DNA of 60,417 nucleotides from Deltaproteobacteria bacterium (GTDB lineage: Bacteria; Myxococcota_A; Polyangia; HGW-17): the NCBI GenBank assembly GCA_016937155.1, contig JAFGWM010000084.1, forward strand, positions 1 to 60,417, written 5' to 3'. A model generated the notes under the pieces. The model was not told the origin of the DNA, did no database searches, and worked only from the letters and a program-made list of their open reading frames with translations. Of this stretch, positions 35,215-45,673 are shown in pieces. The position numbers were made by a program, and so were the translations under genes. Position 1 is the stretch's first letter, and each line of letters opens with the position of its first letter.

Positions 35215-35242
35215 TTGAAATAATTTGATAATCTGGTATAAA
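35215..35242 (+). promoter_or_regulatory. Sigma70 promoter with extended -10
   Basis: TTGAAA (35215-35220), a 16-base spacer and TATAAA (35237-35242) with an upstream TG (TGGTATAAA). Transcription near 35249 rules out the in-frame TTG at 35225 as the start of the following gene and supports the TTG at 35267. Confidence 0.65.
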
Positions 35243-35266
35243 CTCTTGTCACTGAGGGGTGGTAAA

Positions 35267-36292
35267 TTGAAAACTATTTTATTTATTCTAGCTGGTACAG
35301 TTTTTATCACGGCATGTTCTTTTGATGTTCAGGGGCCGGCTTTACCTATAGAGGTGTGTGACAATGGCCTCGATGATGACAATGATGGTTTTGTAGATTG
35401 TTTTGATATGGATTGCAGCGAGTTTTCCGGCTGTAATACCACGGAAAACTGCAGCAACCAAATTGATGATGACGGCGATAACCTCATTGACTGTGATGAT
35501 CCCGACTGCTCCCAGAATGAAACCTGCATGAGTACGGAAAACTGCTTCAATCAGATTGATGATGACGGCGATAACCTCATTGACTGTGATGATCCCGACT
35601 GTGAAAATCTGGAATACTGTAATCCCACGGAGGACTGTTTCAATCAGATTGATGATGACGGCGATGACCTCATTGACTGTGATGATCCTGACTGTGAAAA
35701 TCTGGATTACTGTAACCCACTGGAAGACTGTTTCAATCAGATGGATGATGACGGCGATGATCTCATTGACTGTGATGATCCTGACTGCGCCACTCAGGAT
35801 GAATGTATTCCTCCTGAAATCTGTGGAAACGATACCGATGATGATGGGGATACCCTCATTGACTGTGATGATCCCGATTGTACCACTGATCCTTCCTGTG
35901 CCCATGATGAAACATGTGATAATCACTCAGATGATGATGGGGATGGCCTTACTGACTGTCTGGATGATGACTGTTTCGGAACCTATACAACCTGTGGTTC
36001 GTGTGATCCATTCAATAATAACGGATGTTCTCAGGATCAGTACTGTTATATCGACAAATATAATGGTTTCAGAACTAAATGTTTTGATGATGCCGGGACT
36101 GCACACCTTTATGATTCCTGTGGAATGGGTAACTCCTGTGAAGAAGGTCTTTACTGTACCAGTGCCACCAATCCTGTCTGCCTTGAAATTTGTTATCCAG
36201 GTGTGCTGGATAACTGCCCTTCTGAGGCTCCATGTAAACCATTTACAGACTGGAATATTTATACTGACTGGGGTGTCTGCTGGCCCTGGTGA
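35267..36292 (+). CDS. Acidic Cys/Asp-repeat surface lipoprotein
   Basis: The TTG at 35267 follows a GAGGGGTGG ribosome site and gives a lipoprotein signal with lipobox ITAC. About seven repeats of 31 residues follow, each with the pattern C-x-N-x-x-DDDGD-x-x-DCDDPDC. The spaced Asp residues look like calcium-binding loops and the Cys pairs probably form disulfides. A Cys-rich C-terminal segment of ~110 residues follows. Such repeats are frequent in Myxococcota surface proteins. The function may be adhesion or calcium-dependent structure; no enzyme motif is present. Confidence 0.75.
   Translation: MKTILFILAGTVFITACSFDVQGPALPIEVCDNGLDDDNDGFVDCFDMDCSEFSGCNTTENCSNQIDDDGDNLIDCDDPDCSQNETCMSTENCFNQIDDDGDNLIDCDDPDCENLEYCNPTEDCFNQIDDDGDDLIDCDDPDCENLDYCNPLEDCFNQMDDDGDDLIDCDDPDCATQDECIPPEICGNDTDDDGDTLIDCDDPDCTTDPSCAHDETCDNHSDDDGDGLTDCLDDDCFGTYTTCGSCDPFNNNGCSQDQYCYIDKYNGFRTKCFDDAGTAHLYDSCGMGNSCEEGLYCTSATNPVCLEICYPGVLDNCPSEAPCKPFTDWNIYTDWGVCWPW
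35355..35975 (+). repeat. 93-bp coding repeats (about seven units)
   Basis: The repeats encode the acidic Cys/Asp units. Two adjacent units share a long identical run (starting at 35461 and 35554, exactly 93 bp apart), showing recent duplication or gene conversion within the gene. Confidence 0.85.
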
Positions 36293-36299
36293 GAAATTG

Positions 36300-36328
36300 T
36301 TCCACCCCAATGCATTTTCTGGTATAAA
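36300..36328 (+). promoter_or_regulatory. Candidate promoter for the receiver-mevalonate operon
   Basis: TATAAA (36323-36328) with an extended -10 TGG and a weak TTCCAC 17 bases upstream. The 12-mer TCTGGTATAAAC around it is identical to that in the promoter at 35215-35242. Confidence 0.4.
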
Positions 36329-36377
36329 CGGAAGCCGGATTAATATTTTTATATAAATTGTTCCCATGAGGCTGCTA

Positions 36378-37403
36378 ATGAGTACACAGTACATAGGCCG
36401 TGAAATACTTCTTGTTTCAGAAAACAAACCACTCGTTCAGGATCTTCAAACGGTTCTGTCCAGAGAAGGATTTTTGGTAACAAACATATGTGAGTGGGGA
36501 ACTCTCGAGGATCTCCTGGAAAATAAGTTTTTTATTATTGCCATCATTGATTTTGATATAAAGGCAAAAGGCGATGGTCTTGAAATTCTGGAAATGACAA
36601 AAAAACTTTCTCCGGTAACTCACGTTTTTATGATCACCGCCAGAGAAGATTTCAAGGCAACGGTAAATGCGTTCAGAAGCGGGTGCGAAGATGTAATTCA
36701 CGTACGTCCTGAAGAAATTTTATTCCTTATTGAGAGTATCAAAAAAAGTGCAGCCAGAATTTCCCATGAAAAGGAACGAGATCTTCTGCTCAAGGACATG
36801 TATACAGTTCATAATAATTTTTTCAAAAGAATGCTCTCATTGCATATAAAACTCACAGAAACCGAAGAGGCTCAAAGATACAGAGATGGAGTTGATGACA
36901 GTGAGCTCCCTCCACTTGATATTCTGATTGTTGACAGTGAATCAAATCTAACCCAGGAACTGACTTCTTCTCTGAATGACTCAAAGGGTTGGAATATAAA
37001 AAGCGTGGGCTGGGGCAGCGAAGGTCTTGATCATGGAACTAGTGGAAAATACAAGTTTGTTTTCGTAGGGAAAAATCTTCCGGACTTTCCTTCAAGTATG
37101 GTTGTCTCATCAATAAGTGCATCGAGTCCTGAAACCACAATTATAGTGGTCGAATCAGCCGGTGATGGAAGTTTCAGGTTATCTTCACCCGATTCAGAAG
37201 ATGTGCAGATATCACCTGTTGGAGATATTATTTCCTGGCTGAGAGATAAGCGAATTGATCTGGCTGCCAAATCAACAAAAAAACAGCACATTAAAACTTT
37301 TAAGGCTCAGAATTTTGATTTTCTTCAGAAGTACAGCAAAATCAAATCACGGGTTGAGAAACTTTTTGGAGAATTACTGAAAGATGAATCACAGGGGGAT
37401 TAG
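36378..37403 (+). CDS. Response-regulator-like protein with two receiver-type domains
   Basis: Residues about 5-130 form a receiver domain with a plausible phosphoacceptor in IIDFDIKAKGDG and the switch Thr in MITAR; the usual Lys before Pro is replaced by Arg (HVRPEE). A linker helix follows, and residues about 175-300 look like a second receiver fold that has lost the acidic pocket (LIVDSESN is kept, but VFVGKNLPD stands where the phosphoacceptor should be). No DNA-binding output domain is seen. The start is uncertain: 36378 has GAGG six bases upstream, 36366 is the alternative. Its end overlaps the UbiD-like gene by 20 bp. Confidence 0.65.
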   Translation: MSTQYIGREILLVSENKPLVQDLQTVLSREGFLVTNICEWGTLEDLLENKFFIIAIIDFDIKAKGDGLEILEMTKKLSPVTHVFMITAREDFKATVNAFRSGCEDVIHVRPEEILFLIESIKKSAARISHEKERDLLLKDMYTVHNNFFKRMLSLHIKLTETEEAQRYRDGVDDSELPPLDILIVDSESNLTQELTSSLNDSKGWNIKSVGWGSEGLDHGTSGKYKFVFVGKNLPDFPSSMVVSSISASSPETTIIVVESAGDGSFRLSSPDSEDVQISPVGDIISWLRDKRIDLAAKSTKKQHIKTFKAQNFDFLQKYSKIKSRVEKLFGELLKDESQGD

Positions 37404-38616
37404 TCAGTTTCTGACTTCAGAAAAATTTAAAAGATTTGATTATAATGAAAATTCAAAAGAACGGGGAAATCAACTTTTTCAGGCTACTTCAGGGTTCACA
37501 ACTGAAAACAGCCCTTCAGGGATTAATTACTGCGGTCATATTTATAACAGTATAATACCTGATGCATTTTCTGATCTTGAAACAAAAGCAATATCCGCAT
37601 GGGAAAAACCCGGCACTGTTAAAATAACTGATCTCCCGGATGATTTTAAATTATCTGATTATAACTTCGATGATATACCATTTTTCAGCCTCGGTGAAAG
37701 TATGACTGACTATCTGACCGGAACTGTTGCTGTTATTCCCACCGGGAATTCATGGAATCTGAGTTTTCACAGATTCCAGAAAAAATCTGCAGATACTGCG
37801 GTGGTACGTATTGTAGACAGACATCTTAATGCTGTTTTAAATGAAAGTTCAGATAAAATTCCTGTAAGCTTTATTACAGGGGCTTCTCCTGAAATTGCTC
37901 TTGGCGCATCAATTTCACTTAAGACTCCCGGAGGAGAACTGGAATTTGCAGCGTCCTTAAAAAATGATGATATTCACCTGATAAAATCCGATGAATGGTT
38001 TTTCCCGGAAGACTGTGAACTGGTTTTTTGCGGTTATCTTGAAAAAAACTGTCTACTTCCTGAAGGTCCTTTTGTTGATATTACAGCAACTTCTGATTTT
38101 ATACGAAATCAGCCCCGGTTTAGTCTGAAACACATATATTCAAGACCACATCCGGTAATTCCTCATATTCTGCCTTCAGGTCCCGAGCATGGATATCTGA
38201 TGGGTGAACCAAGGCGACTTCATATTATTTCAGGGCTGAAAAAAAGTGAATTCAATGTACATGATATTTCTCTCACCAGAGGAGGAAGTCACTGGCTGTA
38301 TGCTGTTATATCTCTTGATTATACTGAAAAAACAGATGAACTTTCAGAACTTGTTTTTTCGCTGCATCCTTCTCTCAAGAAGGTTACTTTTGTCAATACG
38401 GATATAAATGTAAACTCTTCAGAACAGGTTGAATGGGCTGAATCAACCAGATGTCAACCCCATCGTGATATAATTGTTTTCAATGATCAGCTAGGTTCCA
38501 GTCTTGATCCAAGTTCTCAAAACGGACAGACATCCAAGTGGTCAGTAAATACACTTGTGAAGGACATTAAAAACTCTGAAAAGTACAGAAGGCAATTGCC
38601 ATTTTTGAAGGTATGA
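37384..38616 (+). CDS. UbiD-family decarboxylase, probable anhydromevalonate-phosphate decarboxylase
   Basis: UbiD enzymes decarboxylate with prenylated FMN. Visible features are GNSWNLSFHR at 121-130 (the family Asn/Arg cofactor and metal region), the RIVDRH segment near 142-147, SFITGASPEIALGA, GGELEFAASL, and the catalytic-loop motif EGPFVDIT at 227-234. At 410 residues it is on the short side of the family. With the following genes the best assignment is decarboxylation of trans-anhydromevalonate 5-phosphate to isopentenyl phosphate, as in the archaeal modified mevalonate pathway. Sequence alone would allow another UbiD substrate; the context decides. It needs prFMN from a UbiX, which is not in the window. 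It lies 3 bp before the AcnX gene. Confidence 0.75.
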   Translation: MNHRGISQFLTSEKFKRFDYNENSKERGNQLFQATSGFTTENSPSGINYCGHIYNSIIPDAFSDLETKAISAWEKPGTVKITDLPDDFKLSDYNFDDIPFFSLGESMTDYLTGTVAVIPTGNSWNLSFHRFQKKSADTAVVRIVDRHLNAVLNESSDKIPVSFITGASPEIALGASISLKTPGGELEFAASLKNDDIHLIKSDEWFFPEDCELVFCGYLEKNCLLPEGPFVDITATSDFIRNQPRFSLKHIYSRPHPVIPHILPSGPEHGYLMGEPRRLHIISGLKKSEFNVHDISLTRGGSHWLYAVISLDYTEKTDELSELVFSLHPSLKKVTFVNTDINVNSSEQVEWAESTRCQPHRDIIVFNDQLGSSLDPSSQNGQTSKWSVNTLVKDIKNSEKYRRQLPFLKV

Positions 38617-38619
38617 GAC

Positions 38620-39753
38620 ATGAGAGATATTTCTGTTCTGGAAAAGATTTTTTCCGGTGAGTTAACCTGCGGCCAGAAGCTGTCTCTGGAGATAATCAGA
38701 GGATTATCTGAAAGCAGTGCAAGTCGATATGTTGTTCCAAGCAGCAGTGCTCAGATAAGTGGAGTGTCTTTTTATAATATTGGACCTGAAGGCATAGATT
38801 TTCTTGATACTTTCGCGAAAAACACCAGAGTCAAAATAAAAACCACATTAAATCCCGGTGCATTTGATACCGATAATCCCGGGAATCATATTAATTCCAG
38901 GGAAGTGGAATTTCAGAAAAAAATATATTCCATATATGAATCCATGGGAATTTCACTTTCCCTGAGTTGCTCACCATATTTCACAGGAAATCTCCCACTT
39001 TACGGCCAGCATATTAGTTGGTCTGAATCCAGTGCGGTGGTTTTTGCCAATTCTGTTCTTGGAGCAAGAACCAACAGAGAAAGCGGTATAAGCGCCCTTA
39101 GCAGTGCGGTAACAGGTTTTACTCCAGCTATCGGGTTACATCTCAGCAAAAACCGGTTTTCCGATGTGGAAATTGATGTAAAGGATAAACTTGACGATCC
39201 AGTGCTTTTTGGACTGCTCGGAGCATGGTGTGGAAAAAACATACCCGGAAAAATCCCACTTTTTCATATGAACACTGATAAACACGTTGGTGTTACTCAT
39301 CTTCAGGCATTGAGTGCTTCAATAATAACATATGGTGGAGCATCCATGTTTCATATAGAAGACTTTACACCGGAATGGAAGGATTATCCGCTCCCACAAT
39401 CTTCAAAATCAGTAACCCTAAAAGACCTTAATTACTTATGGAATGAACTGAGTGATGATTTTGAATATGATAAAAACACACTATTTTTCACCGGTTGTCC
39501 ACATAAAAGCATGGAGGATTCTCTATCTATTATTTCCAGAACAAACAGAACAAATTTTCTGTGTGCTGGCCCTAGGGGTTCATGTAAAATAAATAATAAT
39601 TCCTACATGGCAGGAGGCTGTCTGGCGGTCTCCAGGCTACCGGATAATATCAGGAAAATAGTTACTGACAGCGTCAAGGCAATGTTCTATCTAAAAAACA
39701 GAGGTTTTTCAGTAAAACTGGTATCGGCTGAAGAAATGGATAATCTGAAATGA
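38620..39753 (+). CDS. Aconitase X large subunit, probable phosphomevalonate dehydratase large subunit
   Basis: The aconitase-X core is clear: SAQISGVSFYNIG at 43-55, TTLNPGA at 75-81, CSPYFTGNLP from Cys117, GQHISWSESSAVVFANSVLGARTN in two parts at 129-152, and TGCPHKSMED from residue 291. Cys117, Cys293 and Cys334 are the likely iron-sulfur ligands. The archaeal enzyme dehydrates mevalonate 5-phosphate to trans-anhydromevalonate 5-phosphate; other AcnX proteins dehydrate hydroxyproline. The small-subunit domain is on the next gene, and the IPK fusion there favours the mevalonate role. Length is 377. The stop overlaps the next start as ATGA. Confidence 0.82.
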   Translation: MRDISVLEKIFSGELTCGQKLSLEIIRGLSESSASRYVVPSSSAQISGVSFYNIGPEGIDFLDTFAKNTRVKIKTTLNPGAFDTDNPGNHINSREVEFQKKIYSIYESMGISLSLSCSPYFTGNLPLYGQHISWSESSAVVFANSVLGARTNRESGISALSSAVTGFTPAIGLHLSKNRFSDVEIDVKDKLDDPVLFGLLGAWCGKNIPGKIPLFHMNTDKHVGVTHLQALSASIITYGGASMFHIEDFTPEWKDYPLPQSSKSVTLKDLNYLWNELSDDFEYDKNTLFFTGCPHKSMEDSLSIISRTNRTNFLCAGPRGSCKINNNSYMAGGCLAVSRLPDNIRKIVTDSVKAMFYLKNRGFSVKLVSAEEMDNLK

Positions 39754-40958
39754 ATCAGTCAGTTATTCACGGCAAAAAGATTTTTGGCCACAACATCTCA
39801 GGAGATATACTTTATTCTGAAAATTCACTTTCATTTTACGGTGGAATTAATCCTGAAACTGGAACTGTCGTACAAAAATCCCATCCACTTGAAGGAAAAT
39901 CAGTGGCGGGGAAAATACTGGTTATTCCCTTTGCAAGTGGTTCAACTGTAGGAAACTGGTCCCTTTACAGGCTTGCAAAAAGGGGGCTTGCTCCTGCAGC
40001 AGTCATAATGTCAAAAACTGATAATGTGACAACTGTCGGATGTATTATGGGGAATATTACACTTTTTGCATGCAATAATATCTCATTACTGAAATATATA
40101 AAATCACTGGAAATTAAGGAAAATGAATTATTCATTGACAGCACTGCTGATAAACCTGTGACAGAGAAACTCTTCTCGGAATCAGTTTTTGTAATAAAAG
40201 TGGGCGGAAGCCTGATAACTCATAAGGAAAGTTCTGAGCCTAGTTTTAACCGTGAAAACGCAGAGATTTTTGCTTCAGCATTCTCACAATGGAATAAAAA
40301 GGCAATTCTGATTCACGGGGCAGGCAGTTTCGGCCATTCAGTTGTAAGACAAAAAGGACTTAAAATTTCTTCTGAAGTTAAATCTGATACCATTAAGGGA
40401 TGGTCTGAACTGATTTCACTTCAGTATCAACTGAATATACTTTTTACTGATGTATTGAGAAAATACGGAATAAACCCCTGGCCTGTTCAACCTGACAGTT
40501 TCTTTGATTTCAACAGGGAAGGAAAAATTATCACCACTGGAAATTCACTTTTACAGATTATAAACCGTGGATTTACTCCTGTTTTTTATGGAATACCTTT
40601 TAACTTTGGAAAAAAAACAGGTATTTTGAGTGGGGATGATATTGCTCTCAATCTTGCTGTTTTTCACGGTTTGAAAAACATCATTCATTTTACCTCCACT
40701 GATGGGTTTTATGACCCTGAAACAAAAAACCCCATTATGGAAATTAACCGTGGTAACTGGAATATTCACAAAAACAAACTGCATTCGTTGAATTATGCTG
40801 ATGTTACCGGAGGAATAGGGGGGAAAATAGAATCACTGCTCAAAGCATCAGATAGTGGAATAACAGGTCTGATAACCTCCGGACTCACAACTGAAAAAAT
40901 CATTTCAGCACTTAATCTTGATTCAAATCACACATGGATCAGGCCGGAAAACAGTTAA
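39750..40958 (+). CDS. Fusion of aconitase-X small subunit and isopentenyl phosphate kinase
   Basis: Residues 1-140 are the swivel domain of aconitase X (DUF126): HPLEGKSVAGKILVIP at 45-60, GSTVGNWSLYRL and GLAPAAVI. Residues 147-390 are an amino-acid-kinase domain of the IPK type: VIKVGGSLIT at 148-157, HGAGSFGH at 189-196 with His196 at the place of the diagnostic IPK catalytic His, LSGDDIALNLA at 293-303, and DVTGGIGGKI at 351-360. IPK phosphorylates isopentenyl phosphate to IPP. The two functions are normally separate proteins and flank the decarboxylase step. There is no frameshift or stop between them, and the linker is short. Confidence 0.85.
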   Translation: MNQSVIHGKKIFGHNISGDILYSENSLSFYGGINPETGTVVQKSHPLEGKSVAGKILVIPFASGSTVGNWSLYRLAKRGLAPAAVIMSKTDNVTTVGCIMGNITLFACNNISLLKYIKSLEIKENELFIDSTADKPVTEKLFSESVFVIKVGGSLITHKESSEPSFNRENAEIFASAFSQWNKKAILIHGAGSFGHSVVRQKGLKISSEVKSDTIKGWSELISLQYQLNILFTDVLRKYGINPWPVQPDSFFDFNREGKIITTGNSLLQIINRGFTPVFYGIPFNFGKKTGILSGDDIALNLAVFHGLKNIIHFTSTDGFYDPETKNPIMEINRGNWNIHKNKLHSLNYADVTGGIGGKIESLLKASDSGITGLITSGLTTEKIISALNLDSNHTWIRPENS

Positions 40959-40963
40959 AAAAA

Positions 40964-41920
40964 TTACTCACCTCCTGTACCCATTTCAATACAGACGCCA
41001 ACCGTATTTCCACTCATGATGACATTGCATATTTCATTATCACCGCAGTTACCAAGCTCTCCAAGCCTGCAAAGGCTGGCACATTTACCAAGAGCAGGAA
41101 GACAAATTGAACCCTCCCTGCAGTCTTCAACTGTTGAGCAGTCACCACCTGCATTTGATGTACCTCTATACGGGCTGCAGTATGTCTGAAAATCACCTGT
41201 ACCGGGATTATCAAAATCTATCTCCGGGCGGCACACCATACTTTCAGGACAATCACTTTCCCCTGAGTTTAAGGGTGAACATGTCACATTTAAAATGCAG
41301 TAGCCCAGATTATGACTTTCATAAAGAGCACTTTTGAAAACCATACACAAGGAAGAAGCTGTATCATCAGGCCTAGGACAGTATGTATTATCCTGAGAAC
41401 ACACTGTCACACATGAATTGTCGTTACAGTAAGAACCCTTTGGGCATTCAGTATCGGAATTGCATCTTGAATAATGTGTCCCTGAATTAACCCCGCAGCC
41501 CACTGATGCATTGGAAAGAAAAGTACATGTTCCCTGAGAGCATGAAAAGGAAGGATCTGTGTTCCAGTAACTGTTGCCAATGGTACATTCATCACATGAT
41601 GAATTAAACCTGCAGTCTATATAATCGCAGCTTGACCACTCATCATTGACAGAGTCCATTGAGCATGAATCCGAAGTATTGCAGAAAGCAACTGAAGCAC
41701 ATTCAGGATCTTCACAATCCATCATGGTGTCATTTTCATCATCAACATGGTTGAAACACACTTCCCCATTGATATTTGTAATATTATTGGTTGAATTATT
41801 AACAGTGTTATTAGTGGTATTGTTACTGATTGCAGCATCACTATTATCTTCAAAATCAACAATCAGACTGCATGAGGATACCACCAGCAACAAAACCATT
41901 ACACCAAACAGTTTTTTCAT
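40964..41920 (-). CDS. Cys-rich lipoprotein with an Asn/Thr stalk
   Basis: The ATG at 41920 (GGAG upstream) gives a signal peptide ending in lipobox VSSC; the frame extends to 41992 but that N-terminus has no signal. After the lipobox comes an acidic linker and an Asn/Thr-rich stalk (NNTTNNTVNNSTNN), one Cys/Asp motif (DCEDPEC) like the repeat lipoprotein at 35267, and a long Cys-rich disulfide domain. The function is unknown. It converges with the mevalonate operon, with only 5 bp between the two stop codons. Confidence 0.7.
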   Translation of the reverse strand: MKKLFGVMVLLLVVSSCSLIVDFEDNSDAAISNNTTNNTVNNSTNNITNINGEVCFNHVDDENDTMMDCEDPECASVAFCNTSDSCSMDSVNDEWSSCDYIDCRFNSSCDECTIGNSYWNTDPSFSCSQGTCTFLSNASVGCGVNSGTHYSRCNSDTECPKGSYCNDNSCVTVCSQDNTYCPRPDDTASSLCMVFKSALYESHNLGYCILNVTCSPLNSGESDCPESMVCRPEIDFDNPGTGDFQTYCSPYRGTSNAGGDCSTVEDCREGSICLPALGKCASLCRLGELGNCGDNEICNVIMSGNTVGVCIEMGTGGE

Positions 41921-42054
41921 GACTATTTCTCCAGACAACATCACCTTAAGAATTAACTTCCCATTGGTCAATAAGGATATAACACCAGACACTATAGCAC
42001 ACCAGACTCCTAAATTTCAGAGTAATAATATCGAGTAAATCGAGAAAATTTTAA

Positions 42055-44293: not shown

Positions 44294-45673
44294 ATGAAAC
44301 GGTTTTTTCTTTTAATACTTATTGCTTCCTTTGGCCTGAGTTGTAACAGCAATCCCGAAGATTCAAACAATTCTTTCAATAATCCATCAAATAATATTAA
44401 TAACCAGTTTGATGACAAGGATAAGGATGGATATACCATCGCAGGAGGAGACTGTGACGACAATGATCCCGATGTAAACCCTGGTAAGACTGAAGTTCCA
44501 GATGGTAAAGACAACAACTGTAACGGTTTTACCGATGATGATTATGATAATGATGGTTTTGGAGCAGATTCTGACTGTGATGACCATGATCCTAACAGAT
44601 CCCCAGCTCAGGTGGAAGTCTGCAACGATGGAATTGACAACAACTGTAATGGACTTGTGGATCTTGATGAAAGTGATGATGACGGCGACGGTTTCAACGA
44701 ATGTGATGGAGACTGTGCTGATAATGACGAAACAAGAAGCCCTATTGCTGTGGAAATTCCAGGTGATGGAATTGACAACAACTGCAACGGTGCCGTTGAT
44801 GAGATTAATGATCCCTGCGACTGCAACAGAGTTGAAGTAACAGGAGCACTGTCGAATTTAGGACCAGGCGCCAGACTGGGGGATGCACTGGGTCTTTGTG
44901 ATACTGGTGTTTTTCAGGAAACCATTCAGGTCCTTGGAGCTCAGAGTTACGCCATCATCAGTTATGATCCCGAAAACCTGACTCCTGGTGCTTTCGGGTG
45001 GGGTGATATTAAACCCATTCCTCCACGTCAGATCGAAGAGGGGGATCCGGAATATCCTGCCTCCTGCCAGATGGTGGCTCTTTTCACCGGAGAAGTTCTA
45101 AATAATGAACCTCAGGGTGCAGGCACTCAGGATCTTGAATATACATGTGATCATGACCCTGTGGAAGATATTGATAATGCTGAGGCAGATGATACTCCGG
45201 CAACCTGTACTGATCTTACCCAGATTAAACTGGTAATCCGTACTCCACCAAATGTAAACTCAATATCATTCGACTTTTTATTCCTCTCCTCAGAGTATCC
45301 TGAATGGGTGGATTCTCAGTTCAATGACACATTCTATGCAATTATGGGGAAAGCTTCAGGTGAAGGTGAAACAATTAACATCAGTTTTGATGGAAATGGT
45401 AAGGCCATAACCGTAAACAACAATTATTTCCAGACTCCACCTAACTGGAGCCAGTCAATCAATGGCACAGGATATGAAGTTGAAGAATATGGGGAGTATG
45501 TTGGAAGTGCAACCGGCTGGCTGACCACCAGAGCTCCTGTGGAACCCAATGAAATATATGAAATCGTCTTCTCAATACATGATGAAGGAGATCATGTTCT
45601 GGACAGTGCAGTGGTAATTGACAATGTAAGATGGGGATTTGAAGAAGTTGAAGGTCCTATAACTGTTGAATAA
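44294..45673 (+). CDS. MopE-repeat lipoprotein with choice-of-anchor-L domain
   Basis: Lipobox GLSC follows the signal, then an Asn-rich stalk (SNNSFNNPSNNINN). Three repeats of the myxobacterial metal-binding motif (GDCDDNDP...DNNCNG) span about residues 40-170. The remaining ~285 residues contain the choice-of-anchor-L domain (SISFDFLFLSSEYPEWV and NDTFYAI). It is a predicted cell-surface lipoprotein that probably binds calcium or other metal. CGGAGG precedes the ATG at a good distance. It converges with the DUF3467 gene with a 3-bp gap. Confidence 0.8.
   Translation: MKRFFLLILIASFGLSCNSNPEDSNNSFNNPSNNINNQFDDKDKDGYTIAGGDCDDNDPDVNPGKTEVPDGKDNNCNGFTDDDYDNDGFGADSDCDDHDPNRSPAQVEVCNDGIDNNCNGLVDLDESDDDGDGFNECDGDCADNDETRSPIAVEIPGDGIDNNCNGAVDEINDPCDCNRVEVTGALSNLGPGARLGDALGLCDTGVFQETIQVLGAQSYAIISYDPENLTPGAFGWGDIKPIPPRQIEEGDPEYPASCQMVALFTGEVLNNEPQGAGTQDLEYTCDHDPVEDIDNAEADDTPATCTDLTQIKLVIRTPPNVNSISFDFLFLSSEYPEWVDSQFNDTFYAIMGKASGEGETINISFDGNGKAITVNNNYFQTPPNWSQSINGTGYEVEEYGEYVGSATGWLTTRAPVEPNEIYEIVFSIHDEGDHVLDSAVVIDNVRWGFEEVEGPITVE

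Follow-up and report, generated by a model that had tools for sequence, protein, structure and literature searches.

A short operon of an uncultivated Myxococcota bacterium encodes a predicted archaeal-type lower mevalonate pathway, and very probably this is the route by which the host reaches IPP. The operon lies in the window, a stretch of 60,417 nt that is contig 48 of an assembly of 4.1 Mb (85 contigs, 95% complete). ORF calling in the window identified three consecutive plus-strand genes that form the module (37384-40958). The first (37384-38616, 410 aa) encodes a UbiD-family decarboxylase that Pfam matches, a motif and a tree predict to be the prenylated FMN (prFMN)-dependent trans-anhydromevalonate 5-phosphate decarboxylase (AMPD). 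The second (38620-39753, 377 aa) encodes the putative large subunit of phosphomevalonate dehydratase (PMDh), of AcnX type IIb, as judged from Pfam, diagnostic residues and similarity to the Thermococcus kodakarensis enzyme (TkPMDh). The third (39750-40958, 402 aa) encodes a predicted fusion of the PMDh small subunit and isopentenyl phosphate kinase (IPK). There is a 3-bp gap between the UbiD and AcnX-large genes and a 4-bp overlap between the AcnX-large and fusion genes. An earlier note on this DNA had described adjacent genes for UbiD, AcnX large and AcnX small plus IPK, with which the ORF calls and the Pfam and NCBIfam matches agree. Of the interval that it assigned to them, 36300-40958, the end and the three enzymes were confirmed; its start has to be moved, as most of the first ~1 kb is a gene for a receiver-domain protein (36366-37403).

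From the genes, their residues, their order and the pathway complement, we infer the following route. HMGS, HMGR and MVK, encoded elsewhere in the genome, would supply mevalonate 5-phosphate (MVA5P), and a [4Fe-4S] PMDh, with the AcnX-large protein (38620-39753) and the N-terminal part of the fusion as its subunits, would convert it to trans-anhydromevalonate 5-phosphate. UbiD, with prenylated FMN provided by the single UbiX, would form isopentenyl phosphate, from which the IPK domain of the fusion would generate IPP; a type-2 IPP isomerase (IDI2) would then yield DMAPP. Family searches, from which the coordinates of HMGR, MVK, IDI2, UbiX and MDD in the various genomes were taken, located HMGS, HMGR, MVK, IDI2 and UbiX in the host genome outside the module, with MVK and IDI2 side by side. 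Together with the predicted PMDh, AMPD and IPK, the enzymes from HMGS to IDI2 are all encoded. MVK (153 bits; NCBIfam cut-off, 163), HMGR (257; 260), HMGS (349; 360) and IDI2 (275; 281) are divergent and score slightly below the curated cut-offs, yet they were the best matches by a wide margin; for HMGR, the best match was the class II-type model TIGR00532. UbiX (G000:C85:62568-63113) scored 159 bits, with a cut-off of 108.9. Diphosphomevalonate decarboxylase (MDD) and IspH had no match in the host genome or in any of the 8 family genomes, the MEP pathway being represented in the searches by IspH. The genome is thus one with a mevalonate kinase and no detected IspH, rather than one with a complete MEP pathway and no mevalonate kinase. 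The earlier note's proposal that the host makes isoprenoids by an archaeal-type late mevalonate module gains support from this pathway complement, and likewise from the residues and the UbiD clade described below.

Independent MAGs from the same genus (G141, on JAHJMN010000120.1), family, order and class contain the block in the same gene arrangement; it is therefore neither a chance arrangement nor an assembly artefact. These relatives were retrieved by scanning genome contigs with an alignment of AcnX-large, whereas the fusion protein as query gave none. Archaea and Chloroflexota share the order UbiD-AcnXL-AcnXS, in many cases with IPK next. In the genome G148, IDI2-HMGR-MVK-UbiD-AcnXL-AcnXS-IPK follow one another on the same strand of a single contig, corresponding to the pathway from HMG-CoA onward; UbiX adjoins the block in G153, G161, G166, G172 and G179. 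PMDh-type AcnX was present in roughly 20 of 318 class genomes, partial matches included. Among 11 sampled class members without the module, 10 had MDD and 1 had IspH, whereas the module and MDD coexist in G153 and G179. A single run in G153 (L087, G153:C209, 128-8753) contains UbiX, the AcnX small and large subunits, UbiD, HMGR, MDD, MVK, IDI2 and a weak GHMP kinase match, so that both ends of the mevalonate pathway are found together. In the order, the module-bearing G150 has an IspH match of 110 bits (G150:C22:9367-10218).

These relatives bear on an alternative that we consider improbable, namely, that the module works in a side role while essential IPP comes from another route, either a haloarchaeal-type pathway with MPD and IPK or the MEP pathway. 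The coexistence of module and MDD in G153 and G179 and of module and IspH match in G150 speaks for it. On the other side, the MDD-family search, which should also catch MPD, was as empty as the IspH search in the 8 family genomes, and the sampled relatives without the module possess MDD or IspH. We therefore favor the module as the host's route to IPP. Many of the sampled class members have the classical mevalonate pathway, whereas the archaeal one appears to be the sole IPP route in this lineage, as far as IspH represents the MEP pathway. Such pathway switching within one class is, as far as we have checked, new, and since the classical end, the archaeal end, the two combined or an MEP marker can each be found among close relatives, pathway replacement becomes directly testable here.

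The AcnX-large protein matched the Pfam AcnX family (3e-83), and of the solved structures TkPMDh was closest with 200 bits, as compared with 103 bits for cis-3-hydroxyproline dehydratase (type I). The [4Fe-4S] cysteines are Cys122, Cys297 and Cys356 in ApPMDh and Cys110, Cys283 and Cys342 in the T. kodakarensis enzyme (PMC8184944, PMC10040528). The latter three correspond to C117, C293 and C334 in the window protein and are invariant in the alignment; the three PMDh cluster ligands (sites A, 1 and B) are thus present, and site C is occupied by Ala instead of Cys. All large-subunit residues equivalent to those contacting MVA5P in TkPMDh (7CNS; PMC8184944) are conserved (Gly48, Val49, Ser50, Asn53, Asn79, Glu129, Ser130, Ser131, Lys361 and Tyr365), and the small-subunit contact Ser-Thr-Val, compared as a motif, is conserved in the fusion. 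These data indicate that the 38620-39753 protein, with the swivel domain of the fusion, is a predicted PMDh and not a hydroxyproline dehydratase. An AcnX of the hydroxyproline (type I) kind is a very unlikely reading. It could be argued from a type I-like AcnX branch in the same class (G294, G295 and G239) and from the match to NF051439, which is weak and far below the cut-off of 700. The AcnX fold is common to both enzymes, but the cluster ligands and substrate residues differ: the PMDh site-1 Cys and Ser50/Asn53 are present, the site-C Cys is absent, and the type I marker positions Asp203/Ile206 are Ser47/Ser50 here, so that the residues of the hydroxyproline enzyme are lacking. Furthermore, relatives show linkage of the block to IPK, MVK, HMGR, IDI2 and UbiX. 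On the almost twofold higher TkPMDh score, the cluster ligands and the substrate residues, we ruled out a hydroxyproline dehydratase.

A comparable distinction could be made for the decarboxylase. The 37384-38616 protein matched Pfam UbiD (7.7e-26) and UbiD_C (2.1e-19) and carries the motif EGPFVD. Nearly all sampled PMDh-linked UbiDs from archaea, Chloroflexota and Myxococcota have EGPF[VIL]D, as compared with EGPFGE in five, EGPFGD in one and no match in another of seven ordinary UbiDs. In the tree, the PMDh-linked UbiDs, that of the window included, form a clade separate from the ordinary UbiDs (support 97), so that the window protein falls with the archaeal PMDh-linked enzymes and not with unrelated UbiDs. 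The catalytic Arg and the acidic pair are represented by R130, E227 and D232, which do not vary among 18 PMDh-linked UbiDs and which we take to be the equivalents of Fdc1 R173, E277 and E282. We thus predict a decarboxylase of the AMPD kind. It is the only UbiD of its genome, and the one UbiX is therefore without another obvious client.

The fusion protein contains AcnX_swivel (1.9e-29, residues 27-105) and AA_kinase (3e-18, residues 146-376) domains. Its N-terminal part (residues ~1-135; 39750-40154), assigned to the PMDh small subunit by PF01989, matched TK1248 with 81 bits and, in Foldseek, the TkPMDh small subunit 7cnr_B with a TMt of 0.91 and an rmsd of 1.3. The C-terminal part (residues ~146-402; 40185-40958) scored 145 bits with NCBIfam IPPK_Arch (NF040647; cut-off, 120) and carries HGAGSFGH, corresponding to the HGxGSxGH stretch with the catalytic His, and the DVTGG motif. 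Its best PDB matches were IPKs, both by sequence and by fold, with FomA lower, and on these similarities we assign it as a predicted IPK. An AlphaFold2 model of the fusion consisted of two confident domains (mean pLDDT, 88) and a low-confidence linker at residues 134-139.

The small subunit and IPK share one frame in all six intact family loci (the window, L022-L025 and L027), whereas eight loci of the order or class, L193 and L194 among them, have the two in separate frames. Of ~30 mostly archaeal loci that lie outside the family and possess both genes, none showed a one-frame arrangement; since three of these are the same records as loci already counted, the fusion occurred overall in none of ~35 other loci. 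As far as we have checked, the fusion, found in all intact family loci, is new. In G166 (L006, 1201-3231), a different pair, the AcnX large and small subunits, shares one open frame, unlike the window's fusion. As a tentative joint proposal, the fusion may be bifunctional, tying the first step to the last, perhaps with UbiD in between, and channelling both intermediates, and the archaeal end may have replaced the classical one in part of the class, with G153 as a living intermediate. With the fusion, it could be probed in a simple way whether PMDh, AMPD and IPK act as a complex, a question of relevance also for the engineering of mevalonate routes.

An archaeal contamination of the assembly, to which we assign a negligible probability, would account for the gene order shared with archaea but was ruled out on four observations. 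Within the genus and the family, independent Myxococcota MAGs contain the block together with the response-regulator gene ahead of it; UbiD and AcnX-large are 46-52% identical to their same-genus counterparts but about 26-38% identical to archaeal sequences; the GC content is 0.37-0.40, near the 0.41 of the neighbours; and the fusion was in no archaeal locus examined. As to the origin of the module, in a concatenated tree a 100/100 branch set off the window's family and the main Myxococcota group, with another group of Myxococcota placed among archaea, and with Chloroflexota deep inside archaea. The trees suggest two independent acquisitions in Myxococcota; a single clade is likewise compatible (AU test, p = 0.336), and we do not claim two. 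Because of this p value, of the long branches of the family and of an archaeal sample drawn from the 80 loci most similar to the window, no donor, direction or number of transfers is claimed. The third-position GC of UbiD was 0.27, as compared with 0.36 ± 0.03 in the neighbours, with the other module genes closer, and a recent transfer was not clearly visible in the base composition.

The archaeal lower mevalonate pathway was still called unique to archaea in 2023 (PMC10040528), and a 2013 survey found a clear bacterial IPK in Chloroflexi only (PMC3857490). The earlier note stated that bacteria usually use the MEP or the classical route; an exception was already known: the archaeal pathway has been shown in "Ca. 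Promineifilum breve," a member of the Chloroflexota (Kanno 2024, doi 10.1128/aem.01106-24, as cited in PMC13001223). There, too, a bacterium has a lower mevalonate pathway of archaeal type, so far as the citation describes it, but one of another phylum than ours; moreover, the sampled Chloroflexota sequences sit inside archaea, and no AcnX-small/IPK fusion was found among them. The modified mevalonate pathway of Aeropyrum pernix consists of PMDh, AMPD and IPK (Hayakawa 2018, as described in PMC10040528). In terms of that description, the enzyme set, cluster cysteines and substrate contacts are the same here and the gene order is that of many archaea, but the host is bacterial and the PMDh small subunit is fused to IPK. 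The alternative pathway of Roseiflexus castenholzii (MPD and IPK) also involves a bacterial IPK; there, an MDD-like enzyme decarboxylates mevalonate 5-phosphate (PMC3857490), and no such gene was found in our genome. In the open-access literature searched, itself no proof of absence, there was no report of Myxococcota with the archaeal pathway or of an AcnX-small/IPK fusion. As far as we have checked, Myxococcota would thus be the second bacterial phylum, after Chloroflexota, with a predicted archaeal-type route.

The receiver-domain protein (36366-37403, plus strand; PF00072, 1.6e-15) is directly upstream of UbiD, the two genes sharing 20 bp at the start of UbiD. It is none of the pathway enzymes; its first receiver is clear, and a second receiver-like stretch (residues 186-267) is weak. 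Five other loci of the family likewise have this gene ahead of the module, and its product may be a regulator of the module or a mere operon neighbour. Proteins rich in Asp/Asn/Cys repeats flank the module (35225-36292, 40964-41992 and 44294-45673), the last with a Cu-binding MopE motif. Farther away, the segment 229-5244 encodes HydF, two radical-SAM proteins (one with a BATS domain, HydE/HydG-like) and an aspartase/fumarase-like lyase. The segment resembles a gene block for the maturation of an [FeFe]-hydrogenase and, as such, would suggest an anaerobic lifestyle.
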